A stretch of 32,204 nucleotides of DNA from OCS116 cluster bacterium AG-430-B22. GTDB lineage: Bacteria > Pseudomonadota > Alphaproteobacteria > MED-G09. The notes under the pieces are model-generated. The model saw nothing but the letters and a program-made list of their open reading frames with translations, made no database searches and was not told the DNA's origin. A program made the position numbers and the translations under genes. How positions within the stretch are numbered: the first letter of the stretch is position 1; the number at the start of each line of letters is the position of its first letter. The stretch spans positions 1 through 32,204 of the forward strand of contig QCOD01000012.1 of NCBI GenBank assembly GCA_003209955.1, given 5' to 3'. Positions 27,246 to 30,539 of the stretch are shown one piece after another.

Positions 27246-28976
27246 ATGGATATACTAGAAAAATATAAGAATATTTTAATTACAAAGCTTAATAAATCTT
27301 ATTCAAAGGAAGATTTATCAAATATATCTTTTGAATTTCCAAGAGATAGCTCACACGGGGATTTTTCAACAAATGCGGCACTTATTTTATCAAAAAAATT
27401 AAAAATAAACTTAGATCAGATATTCCTGGAAGTTAAAAAGTTTTTTGAAGATAGTGGCGATTTCAAAGATATTGTATTAGCAAAGTCAGGTTTTATTAAT
27501 TTTTTCGTTAAAGATTATATTTTACATGATTTTATTCGAGAGGTTTTAAAAAATAGAGAAAATTTTGGAAAAAAAGAACTTGGAAAAGGAGAAAAGATTA
27601 ACATTGAGTATGTTTCAGCTAACCCCACAGGACCTTTGCATGTTGGACATACAAGGGGAGCAGTTTTTGGTGATACACTAGCTAATATATTTGATTTTGT
27701 GGGTTTTGATGTTTGTAGAGAATATTATATTAATGATTCAGGCGAGCAAATAAGAAATTTAGCAAAATCTGTTTATTTAAGATATTTACAAAATTTTTCA
27801 GATAAAGAAATTGTGATACCAGATAACCTTTATCCTGGAGAGTATTTAATTCCTATAGCAAAAAAAATCAGCGATGAGCATGGAGAAAAATTTCTAGATA
27901 AAGATGAAAGTGAATGGCTAGATTTTTTTATGAAAGAATCGATATCTAGTATAATGGATATTATTAAAAACGACCTTAAATCTCTTGAAATAAAACATGA
28001 TTTATTTGTCTCAGAAAAAGCTTTATTGGAAGAAGGTGATGTAAATAAAGCTTATAAAAATCTAGAGGATAAAAAACTACTTTATAAGGGCAATACAAAC
28101 CCACCTAAAGGCAGTAAAAAAGATGAATGGAGAGAAAAGAAGCATATTCTTTTTAAATCAAAAAATTTTGGAGATGATGAGGATAGAGTTGTAAAAAAAC
28201 ATGATGGTCAATGGACTTATTTTATGCCAGATATTGCCTATCATTTAAATAAATATGAAAGAGGATTTATTAGGATGATAAATATCTTTGGGGCTGATCA
28301 TTCAGGATATATAGCTAGAATGAAGGCGGCTGTTAAAGCTGTAACTAATGAAAAGGCAAATCTCGAAATAAAAACTTGTCAATTGGTTCGTTTGTCTAGA
28401 GGTGGAAAGCCTATTAAGATGTCAAAAAGGGCAGGAAGCTTCATTACATTAAAAGAAATTGTTAATGAGGTTGGTAAGGATGCAGTTAGATTTATGATGG
28501 TTTCAAGAAAAAATGATGCCCAATTAGATTTTGATTTCGAAGTTTTTAAAAATGAAAACAATGATAACCCTATCTTTTATATACAATATGCAAATGCAAG
28601 AATATCTTCGCTAATTAGAAATTCGAAAGAAAAACTTGGAAGAGATATTAAAGATAATGATTTGATAAATGCCGATTTAGCTTTTTTGCAAAATGAAAAC
28701 GAAAAAAAGATAATATTTCAAATAGCTAATTTTCCAAAAGTAATTGAGCAATCAGTTACATTTATGGAGCCTCATAGGTTATCTTACTATTTAAGAGATC
28801 TTGCTTCTTCTTTTCATCAATATTGGAATTTAAAAATAGATAACAAACGTATTCATATTTTAGATAAAAGTGAAATCGAACTATCATTGGCTAGGGTAGC
28901 TCTGCTTTTTGCTGTTTCAATCACAATCCAAACTGGTTTAGGATTACTTGGAATTGAAGCAATAGAGGAATTGTAA
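27246..28976 (+). CDS. argS: Arginine--tRNA ligase
   Basis: ArgRS charges tRNA-Arg. The class I HIGH motif appears as HVGH (132-135) within ANPTGPLHVGHTRGAVFGD, and the KMSKS loop as KMSKR (391-395) in GGKPIKMSKRAGSFITL. The N-terminal additional domain (about 1-95) and the C-terminal DALR anticodon-binding helices (from about 450) complete the 576-residue protein, a normal length. The start codon immediately follows the stop of the dGTPase-like gene and its stop abuts the next gene. Confidence 0.96.
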   Translation: MDILEKYKNILITKLNKSYSKEDLSNISFEFPRDSSHGDFSTNAALILSKKLKINLDQIFLEVKKFFEDSGDFKDIVLAKSGFINFFVKDYILHDFIREVLKNRENFGKKELGKGEKINIEYVSANPTGPLHVGHTRGAVFGDTLANIFDFVGFDVCREYYINDSGEQIRNLAKSVYLRYLQNFSDKEIVIPDNLYPGEYLIPIAKKISDEHGEKFLDKDESEWLDFFMKESISSIMDIIKNDLKSLEIKHDLFVSEKALLEEGDVNKAYKNLEDKKLLYKGNTNPPKGSKKDEWREKKHILFKSKNFGDDEDRVVKKHDGQWTYFMPDIAYHLNKYERGFIRMINIFGADHSGYIARMKAAVKAVTNEKANLEIKTCQLVRLSRGGKPIKMSKRAGSFITLKEIVNEVGKDAVRFMMVSRKNDAQLDFDFEVFKNENNDNPIFYIQYANARISSLIRNSKEKLGRDIKDNDLINADLAFLQNENEKKIIFQIANFPKVIEQSVTFMEPHRLSYYLRDLASSFHQYWNLKIDNKRIHILDKSEIELSLARVALLFAVSITIQTGLGLLGIEAIEEL

Positions 28977-29606
28977 ATGAATTTAATAAAATACACTAAA
29001 TATGTTCTTTTAATATTCATAATTTTTGTATTTATTTTAATTTATAAGATATTGTTCGATGAGAAAGAGGTTTTAATTTTAACAAATAATGATCCAATAA
29101 AAGAACAACCCATTAATCCTCCTGAAATGAAAGATCCAGAAATAATTCCATGTGTATATTCTCTTTGGAATGAAAATACCCCATGTCAAAGTACTGAAAA
29201 TTTATTAAATGTAAGAAAAGAAAAAAAAGGATTTTTTACGATTAGGTATGCAACTTTTGAAAATTATAAAGATGCTGAATTACATATAAAAAAGCTAAAA
29301 ACATTAAATGAGATTAATAAACTTAGGTTGGAAATTGAAACAATTCAGCAGGAAAAGAGTATAAGAGTTAAACAAGGTGATACATTATCAAGAATTGCCG
29401 CATTATATGGAGTTTCTATCGATGATTTAGCGCGTTTTAATTCAATAAAAGATCCAGGCAGAATAACCTTGAATCAAAAGCTATTAATACCCATGAAAGA
29501 AAAATACCGAATCATATCAATTAATATTGATGGTTATAAAGAAGCAAAGAAGATTTGTGATATCCTTATTGATAATCAATTTACATGTTTAATCAAATCT
29601 CAATAA
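28977..29606 (+). CDS. Membrane-anchored protein with LysM domain between two SPOR-like halves
   Basis: This is a predicted cell-wall-binding protein. A single membrane anchor lies at residues 8-27, followed by a proline-rich linker. A strand-helix segment (FFTIRYATFENYKDAELHIKK from residue 86) resembles the first half of a SPOR domain. A clear LysM domain follows (about 129-173: IRVKQGDTLSRIAALYGVS and GRITLNQKLLIPM). The last 34 residues (KYRIISINIDGYKEAKKICD onward) resemble the second SPOR half, with a CLIK end like alphaproteobacterial SPOR proteins downstream of argS. LysM binds peptidoglycan chains and SPOR binds denuded glycans at the division site. The LysM call is firm; the SPOR halves are my inference from pattern and position. 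Confidence 0.75.
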   Translation: MNLIKYTKYVLLIFIIFVFILIYKILFDEKEVLILTNNDPIKEQPINPPEMKDPEIIPCVYSLWNENTPCQSTENLLNVRKEKKGFFTIRYATFENYKDAELHIKKLKTLNEINKLRLEIETIQQEKSIRVKQGDTLSRIAALYGVSIDDLARFNSIKDPGRITLNQKLLIPMKEKYRIISINIDGYKEAKKICDILIDNQFTCLIKSQ

Positions 29607-29632
29607 GTAAAATATAATTTAATTTATTACTT
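29605..29632 (+). terminator. Weak terminator-like inverted repeat after the SPOR/LysM gene
   Basis: AAGTAA (29605-29610) and TTACTT (29627-29632) can pair over a 16-base loop, followed by a run of Ts. The stem is entirely weak A-T apart from two pairs. The rest of the 29607-29792 gap is AT-rich, with a ten-base palindrome CTATATATAG at 29743-29752 and no recognisable RNA gene. Confidence 0.3.
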
Positions 29633-29792
29633 TTTTATTGTAAAGCATTGATAATAATGTATTAATTATATTTAAAATAAGATTTTTCTAGATACTCTTT
29701 TCTAAAATAGTATTTAATTAGTGTTTTTAGTAATTATAGGCGCTATATATAGTATATGGATAGTGATGGCCAATTAAGTTTTTTTTGTTGAT

Positions 29793-30539
29793 TTGGATGG
29801 TTTCGAGGGACCATTAGATCTTCTTTTATCTTTAGCTAAAGAACAAAAGGTTGATTTACTAGAAATTTCAATTTTGGAATTAGCAAGTCAGTATTTAGAT
29901 TTTGTTACTGAAATGCATTCCCGTGATATTGAACTTGCCGCTGATTATTTAGTCATGGCCTCATGGCTGGCCTATCTTAAATCCAAGCTATTACTTCCTA
30001 TTGAAGAAATAGAACCTGGCGCAGAAGAAATGGCTGCAATTTTAGCCTTCAGATTAAGGCGATTAGAAGCAATGCGAAATGCTGGTAATAACCTTATGAA
30101 TAGAAATCGTATTGGTGAAAGATTGTTTAGAAGGGGAATGCCTGAAATAATTAAGACTATAAAAACATATTCACAAAAAGATACCATGTTTGATATTTTG
30201 AAATCATATAGTGAAGTCAGAAATAGAAATTATGTAGTAAATTGGTCACCAAAACCATTACCAATTCTTTCAATAGAGGATGCTCGGAAAAGATTAGAAG
30301 CAATGTTGGGTGTATCAATTGAATGGATAAATTTTTTAGATTTTATACCATCATCTAAAGACACCGGTGAAAGAGCAACCTCATATAGAAGAAGTTCAGC
30401 TGCATCAATTTTTAATGTAAGTTTAGAAATGTCAAAAAAAGGATTAATAGAAATAAGCCAAAATAAGAATTTTGGCACTATAAGATTTAAGAATTTAGAT
30501 AAGGAAGAAAGTAAAAATAAAGAGGAGATAAGGGCCTGA
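29793..30539 (+). CDS. scpA: Segregation and condensation protein A
   Basis: ScpA is the kleisin subunit that bridges SMC heads in the bacterial condensin complex with ScpB. The N-terminal signature GFEGPLDLLLSLAKEQKVDL is immediately recognisable, as are LASQYLDF and AADYLVMASWLAYLKSKLLLP; the C-terminal winged helix ends near residue 240. The start is uncertain. TTG 29793 is the only start codon in the open frame, but the family sequence (VFFVDL before DGFEGP) continues upstream to a TAA at 29775, and an ATG (29766) lies three codons before that stop. The stop overlaps the scpB ATG by one base. Confidence 0.9.
   Translation: MDGFEGPLDLLLSLAKEQKVDLLEISILELASQYLDFVTEMHSRDIELAADYLVMASWLAYLKSKLLLPIEEIEPGAEEMAAILAFRLRRLEAMRNAGNNLMNRNRIGERLFRRGMPEIIKTIKTYSQKDTMFDILKSYSEVRNRNYVVNWSPKPLPILSIEDARKRLEAMLGVSIEWINFLDFIPSSKDTGERATSYRRSSAASIFNVSLEMSKKGLIEISQNKNFGTIRFKNLDKEESKNKEEIRA

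Follow-up and report, generated by a model that had tools for sequence, protein, structure and literature searches.

The marine OCS116 cluster bacterium AG-430-B22 carries a gene in which a LysM domain appeared, from the sequence, to have been inserted into the middle of a SPOR domain. The locus raises three linked questions: whether the two blocks that flank the LysM are halves of one SPOR domain, to which family the protein belongs, and which of its two modules would bring it to the cell wall. We analysed the gene in the window, by which we mean the whole stretch of 32,204 nucleotides examined here (contig QCOD01000012.1), where on the plus strand the argS stop codon is followed without gap by the ATG of the nested gene. 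The features are given in Table 1.

Table 1. Positions in the window of the nested gene, its parts and its neighbours.
Feature	Residues	Window positions	Strand	Remark
Putative FtsN-like gene, LysM nested in SPOR domain		28977..29606	+	209 aa
argS		27246..28976	+	upstream neighbour marking the conserved slot
Membrane helix, single	3-27	28983..29057	+	AlphaFold model
Linker, conserved, periplasmic by predicted topology	33-64	29073..29168	+	resembles linker motif of argS-adjacent SPOR proteins
SPOR first half (strand 1, helix 1, strand 2)	86-128	29232..29360	+	
LysM insert	129-175	29361..29501	+	PF01476 E 4.2e-14; 4uz2 Z 9.3
SPOR second half (strand 3, helix 2, strand 4)	176-209	29502..29603	+	
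scpA		29793..30539	+	downstream neighbour; Pfam scan of the G005 copy

The LysM domain was readily identified by Pfam, with PF01476 matching residues 130-172 of the window protein (52.6 bits, E 4.2e-14; cut-off 20.9 bits); it also matched 15/15 members of the family at E <= 1 (best 2.6e-15), and all 15 loci exceeded the cut-off. The SPOR profile PF05036, searched against the intact window protein, reached residues 80-110 only (E 0.15, 12.8 bits). Removal of residues 129-175, which the original prediction had put forward as a check, extended the alignment to profile positions 2-72 of 76 and improved the E-value to 0.0023, with a score of 18.7 bits that still falls below the gathering score of 21. 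The score varied with the segment removed (18.3 bits without 128-174, 15.7 without 129-174 and 13.9 without 131-176), and the window protein without its LysM remained under the gathering score at all cuts used (13.9-18.7 bits). Across the family, PF05036 was detected at E <= 1 in 13 of the 15 intact members (best 7.3e-4) and in all 11 LysM-removed members submitted (best 4.3e-5).

A closer SPOR profile was built from the last 88 residues of 28 argS-adjacent relatives in the class. With this profile the best domain of the window protein rose from 8.8 bits when intact to 25.0 bits without residues 129-174 (16.1 to 25.4 bits for the whole protein, with pieces summed), and the score increased on LysM removal in 15/15 members, five of which, from genus g2, reached only 10.7-14.1 bits without the LysM. 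A 46-residue deletion moved along the window protein through 104 positions had its optimum at 131-176 (29.0 bits, against a median of 9.4), and the best deletion started at residues 128-134 in the four members scanned. The maximum from 3000 shuffles of residues 81 onward of the LysM-removed window protein was 5.6 bits compared with 25.0 for the real sequence, and the SPOR match is therefore above chance; the shuffle maxima for three members were 5.6, 7.3 and 7.8 bits against real scores of 25.0, 30.3 and 15.7. Comparison of the intact family with the SPOR family by hhalign gave a probability of 85% (E 6.9e-6) with one long gap over nearly the whole LysM, and the LysM-removed family gave a probability of 95% (E 2.5e-8), all hhalign E-values in this study being single-comparison values. 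A PDB search with the LysM-removed family profile returned no SPOR chain, and its seven matches, at E 0.058 or worse, were six affibodies and one ribosomal protein.

Two AlphaFold models were computed from 15-row alignments, one for the window protein and one for a relative at 39% identity, with mean confidences of 77.5 and 79.9 that were higher from about residue 91 (means of 85-91 per ten residues over 91-209 in the window protein). The window model contains a helix at 3-27, a strand at 86-94, a helix at 97-107, a strand at 118-130, the LysM helices at 137-144 and 148-154, a strand at 168-185, a helix at 187-199 and a strand at 205-208, thereby placing the same blocks at the same coordinates as had been read from the sequence (86-128, the LysM, and 176-209). 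For both models the top structural match was the SPOR domain of Pseudomonas aeruginosa RlpA (6i05; Z 9.8 and 11.0), superposed over 75/76 residues at rmsd 1.6 and 1.7 Å on model ranges 86-209 and 86-211, that is, across the LysM. Other SPOR domains in the lists were those of CwlC (Z 7.5 and 9.0) and DedD (Z 5.7 and 6.2), and the insert, predicted with the beta-alpha-alpha-beta fold of a LysM, was matched by the LysM structure 4uz2 at 126-174 and 127-174 (Z 9.3 and 9.6). This SPOR-first ranking comes from a second aligner run on the chains that Foldseek ranks highest; Foldseek alone listed no SPOR domain in its first 50 rows, with ribosomal proteins and LysM on top.

In the strand order of the SPOR fold, strands 2 and 3 are adjacent. 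The strand at 118-130 of the window model links SPOR strand 2 to LysM strand 1, and that at 168-185 links LysM strand 2 to SPOR strand 3; in the second model both joining strands are broken by short turns. The outer blocks are thus predicted in both models to pack as a single beta-alpha-beta-beta-alpha-beta SPOR sheet, an RNP-like fold (PMC6895207), interrupted by the LysM. The gain in profile score on LysM removal, the deletion scan, the hhalign comparisons and the two models confirm that residues 86-128 and 176-209 together form a single SPOR domain, one half each, with a complete LysM (129-175) at its midpoint, as originally predicted.

The original prediction had also likened the second block to the SPOR protein that follows argS in alphaproteobacteria, a link that gene position and conserved residues bear out and the linker supports more weakly. 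At 37 loci of the class the ORF after argS was inspected by eye and a SPOR protein was picked in 28, all of which (28/28) were confirmed by Pfam at E <= 0.01. These relatives are 174-505 aa long without any LysM, compared with 209 aa including the LysM here. Their near-invariant SPOR columns R, A, C and C, present in 26, 26, 26 and 27 of the 28, correspond to R178, A190, C194 and C204 (window numbering), which are kept in 15, 14, 15 and 15 of the 15 members. A linker motif, K/R..P..xGG, is found in 20/28 of the relatives. The membrane helix and linker together matched the argS-adjacent SPOR proteins by hhalign at E 5e-6 (probability 86%); the linker without the membrane helix gave E 3.5e-4 and a probability of 37%, which is weak evidence for orthology, and its score of 20.5 exceeded the maximum of 18.2 obtained from 200 column shuffles. 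An FtsN-like layout is present, with a single membrane helix in the model and a C-terminal SPOR domain, here split, that the predicted topology would place in the periplasm. By fold and homology we file the nested protein as a putative FtsN-like ortholog whose split SPOR domain would descend from that of the argS-adjacent family, with denuded-glycan binding as a putative property only.

The order to which the window genome belongs is the PS1/OCS116 marine clade, represented by 18 genomes (G000-G017) from three genera of one family. The nested gene is complete in 15 of them, its products sharing 36-93% identity with the window protein, and on this count is not an assembly artefact; it is truncated by a contig end in one further genome and was not found in the remaining two, neither of which gave an argS hit above the cut-off. 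Outside the order, a search of 289 class genomes (285 non-PS1) with the family profile gave matches at E <= 1e-7 in 76, and the non-PS1 matches listed fall on the LysM region, with few extending past it. Six non-PS1 stretches inspected by eye, including four of the further-reaching ones (G077, G273, G120 and G038) but none of a further set that extends a little past the LysM (such as G211, G066 and G149), were rejected as nested forms: they comprise LysM-M23 proteins, a TPR/secretin-like protein and a 411-aa LysM protein in which no SPOR was visible. The window genome was the sole match among 398 genomes of the phylum at E <= 1e-12, and viral contigs contained no relative. Nothing in this thin sampling points to a nested form outside the order. 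That the LysM was inserted in or before the ancestor of the order forms part of the explanation favoured below, and we regard it, as part of that whole, as reasonably probable.

FtsN acts as a trigger for the synthesis of the septal wall, and recruitment by denuded glycan is classically illustrated by its SPOR domain. Drawing on the computed architecture, homology, conservation and gene position, and on the nested domain being the sole LysM found in these genomes, we favour with moderate confidence the explanation that the protein is an FtsN ortholog in which wall targeting has moved from SPOR to LysM. The LysM would have entered the SPOR fold after strand 2 and before strand 3; SPOR strand 2 would continue as LysM strand 1, and LysM strand 2 would lead back into SPOR strand 3, forming one two-lobed head that would still bring the protein to septal peptidoglycan. 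Binding would have shifted from denuded glycan, recognised by SPOR, to the glycan backbone, recognised by LysM, and the membrane helix and linker would retain the role of FtsN in promoting septal wall synthesis. The shift would accompany a loss of recognisable amidase activators of the LytM/M23 type, proteins that frequently bear LysM domains elsewhere in the alphaproteobacteria.

The residues that contact glycan are central to this explanation. In RlpA, Q270, R302, R309 and R311 touch the glycan and F274 borders the site, Q270 and R309 being equivalent to Q251 and R285 of FtsN (PMC6895207). The strand-1 Gln is the sole invariant column of the 28 argS-adjacent relatives (28/28), and it is absent in 15/15 members of the nested family, where its place is taken by R in 6, L in 6, I in 2 and A in 1 (Arg at residue 90 of the window protein); hmmalign left 6/15 of the members unaligned at this column, and the residues were read in the family alignment at the position that precedes the invariant F94 by four. 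The equivalents of F274 and R309, placed like the other RlpA equivalents by alignment and spacing, are F94 and R178 and are invariant in 15/15 members. The R311 equivalent is Ile in 15/15 (I180 in the window protein), at a position that is variable in the relatives too. With the Gln replaced throughout, the SPOR half is perhaps no longer a usual binder. The original prediction of two peptidoglycan-binding modes is weakened by this replacement.

The same residues bear on an alternative that we consider unlikely, the dual binder of the original prediction, in which the SPOR half would still bind denuded septal glycan in a modified manner and the LysM would act as a second, peptide-tolerant grip, giving avidity, not replacement. 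The invariant F274 and R309 equivalents and the retention of an amidase in 16/18 genomes (see below) are in its favour, as is the finding that the RlpA SPOR domain reads glycan mainly by main-chain contacts (PMC6895207); the Arg found in the window genus might still contact the lactyl carboxylate. Against it stand the replacement by R, L, I or A of the one residue that all 28 relatives share, and the Ile at the R311 equivalent.

The other SPOR protein of the clade, an RlpA without LysM, had the strand-1 Gln in 0/14 sequences compared by eye (L076-L078 and L124-L134); the Gln was kept in 4/4 RlpA-type proteins of the class, a biased sample of top SPOR hits that passed a Gln-bearing profile. The Gln is therefore lost across the clade, and causes other than the LysM insertion are possible.

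The shift to LysM that we favour coincides with a further change in the clade. In 15/18 genomes of the order no LysM was found besides the nested one, and the other three are those without a complete nested gene. An M23/LytM domain above the cut-off was found in 0/18 PS1 genomes (one profile; 6 genomes at least 90% complete) and in 42/43 other genomes of the class, and by Pfam the nested protein itself has none. A weak M23 match in G017 (19.2 bits, below the cut-off) was discarded, as the ORF reads by eye as RNA polymerase beta'. Reading by hand located a LysM-M23 ORF no more than 13 kb downstream of argS, in the same orientation, in at least 12/43 of the other class genomes. One such genome (G025) has the order argS, SPOR, nagZ, scpA, scpB, tatC, serS, pcm, LysM-LysM-M23, secD, secF. 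Two PS1 genomes (loci L144 and L145) retain scpA, scpB, tatC and serS followed further on by secD and secF, with yajC between in G005, and no ORF occupies the places of nagZ, pcm and LysM-M23 in their argS-to-secDF clusters. In these comparisons scpA, serS, YajC, PCMT and LysM-M23 were named by Pfam from one copy each, and tatC, secD, secF and nagZ by eye. In the window, nagZ was not seen between the nested gene and scpA (29607-29792), where it is present in G025. A GH3 protein was seen elsewhere in only 6/18 genomes of the order (open frame of 434-655 aa).

Loss of the amidase itself, and with it of denuded glycan, was ruled out, as an Amidase_3 protein is present in 16/18 PS1 genomes (the single copy scanned combines AMIN and Amidase_3); denuded glycan is thus probably still made. 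In E. coli amidases the zinc is bound by a Glu from a blocking helix, and an interaction helix docks in the groove of the LytM activator (PMC10268282). We equated stretches of the alphaproteobacterial amidases with these helices by position and pattern, using one sequence per genome and excluding the PS1 copy of G012, which is broken into two frames. At the putative latch position, Glu is present in 15/15 PS1 and 31/33 class amidases. The motif [ILV]L.DL in the interaction-helix region is found in 0/15 PS1 amidases versus 31/33 class amidases, and the PS1 sequences have a short insertion in this region (L135-L138 and L148-L158). The loss of the motif supports a real loss of M23/LytM proteins in the clade.

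From this co-occurrence we infer that the transfer of a LysM into the FtsN-like protein may have compensated for the lost LysM-LytM regulators. One idea is that the nested LysM derives from the lost neighbouring LysM-M23 gene, although a stretch of 43 residues offers little for a tree. A bolder and distinctly doubtful version is that the FtsN-like protein took over the job of the lost activators, such that the LysM would sense septal glycan and the protein would release the amidase, with FtsN or its head touching the AMIN-type amidase at its rewritten regulatory helix. The observation that points to it is that rewritten helix alone. If true, septal synthesis and septal cutting would be gated by one protein and not by two pathways.

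Two further explanations can be set against a transfer of wall targeting to the LysM. Both ends of the LysM fold lie next to each other, which would make it structurally easy for the domain to enter a tolerant hairpin tip as a passive insert that plays no part in binding; a LysM between the repeats of a CVNH lectin also exists (PMC4392113). The domain is nevertheless found in 15/15 complete copies that are 36-93% identical to the window protein, with I129, G134, D135, N155, P160, Q167 and P172 invariant, in small genomes in which no other LysM was found, all of which make a passive insert improbable. That the outer blocks are an unrelated ferredoxin-like fold carrying a LysM, as might be suggested by the Pfam scores below the gathering score even without the LysM, the PDB sequence search devoid of SPOR matches and the other alpha-beta folds lower in the structure lists, is very hard to reconcile with the RlpA SPOR domain ranking first for both models alongside CwlC and DedD, the hhalign match to the argS-adjacent SPOR family, the conserved R, A, C and C, and the shared gene slot after argS, and we give it almost no weight.

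Among characterised proteins, the closest in layout are CC2007/FtsN of Caulobacter and RgsS of Sinorhizobium, FtsN-like proteins with one membrane helix, a periplasmic linker and a C-terminal periplasmic SPOR domain, whose loss leads to filamentation (PMC7822825, PMC7327166, PMC4211646). The nested protein differs from these in its interrupted SPOR domain, the loss of the conserved Gln and its small size. The CC2007 or RgsS gene itself is presumably also located after argS. With the RlpA SPOR domain of P. aeruginosa (6i05, 6i09) the protein shares the fold and the F274 and R309 equivalents; it lacks equivalents of Q270 and R311 as well as the catalytic DPBB domain, and it has the nested LysM. 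Regulators of the NlpD/DipM type, which combine LysM and M23, resemble it in having a LysM that serves, in DipM, for reaching the division site (PMC10336132), whereas the nested protein is without M23/LytM and has a membrane anchor and SPOR halves.

The nesting of a LysM in another glycan-binding fold is already known from the MoCVNH-LysM lectin of Magnaporthe oryzae (2l9y), in which the LysM lies between repeats of the host fold (PMC4392113), and SPOR and LysM domains are each known separately; the host there is a fungal CVNH lectin, and here the SPOR domain of a bacterial division protein. In the literature searched, largely without subscription papers, we found no report of a LysM nested in a SPOR domain or of this gene. 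A 2026 paper on domain insertion (PMC13114784) does not contain the whole words LysM or SPOR, and PMC7901474 uses both terms for separate proteins. The nested gene thus offers a bacterial example of a LysM within another glycan-binding fold, in an order whose SPOR domain has been opened by a second glycan-binding module and has lost a key residue. This change coincides with the loss of recognisable LytM activators and of an amidase motif in the activator-binding region, and the clade is in effect a natural test, in a reduced marine genome, of how far division needs the feedback loop between amidases and SPOR proteins.

Several minor features of the locus were also noted. The cysteine pair C194/C204 of the second SPOR half, common to 26 and 27 of the 28 argS-adjacent relatives, could form a family-wide disulfide. 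In the linker, C59, C70 and S62-L63-W64 (residues 59-70, window 29151-29186) are invariant in 15/15 PS1 members and are perhaps a disulfide or a partner-binding site. Downstream, the scpA frame appears to be broken near its start at a run of T (window 29756-29795), possibly through an assembly or read error; the window ORF is listed from a TTG at 29793, and the relative in G005 starts with an ATG 12 residues earlier.
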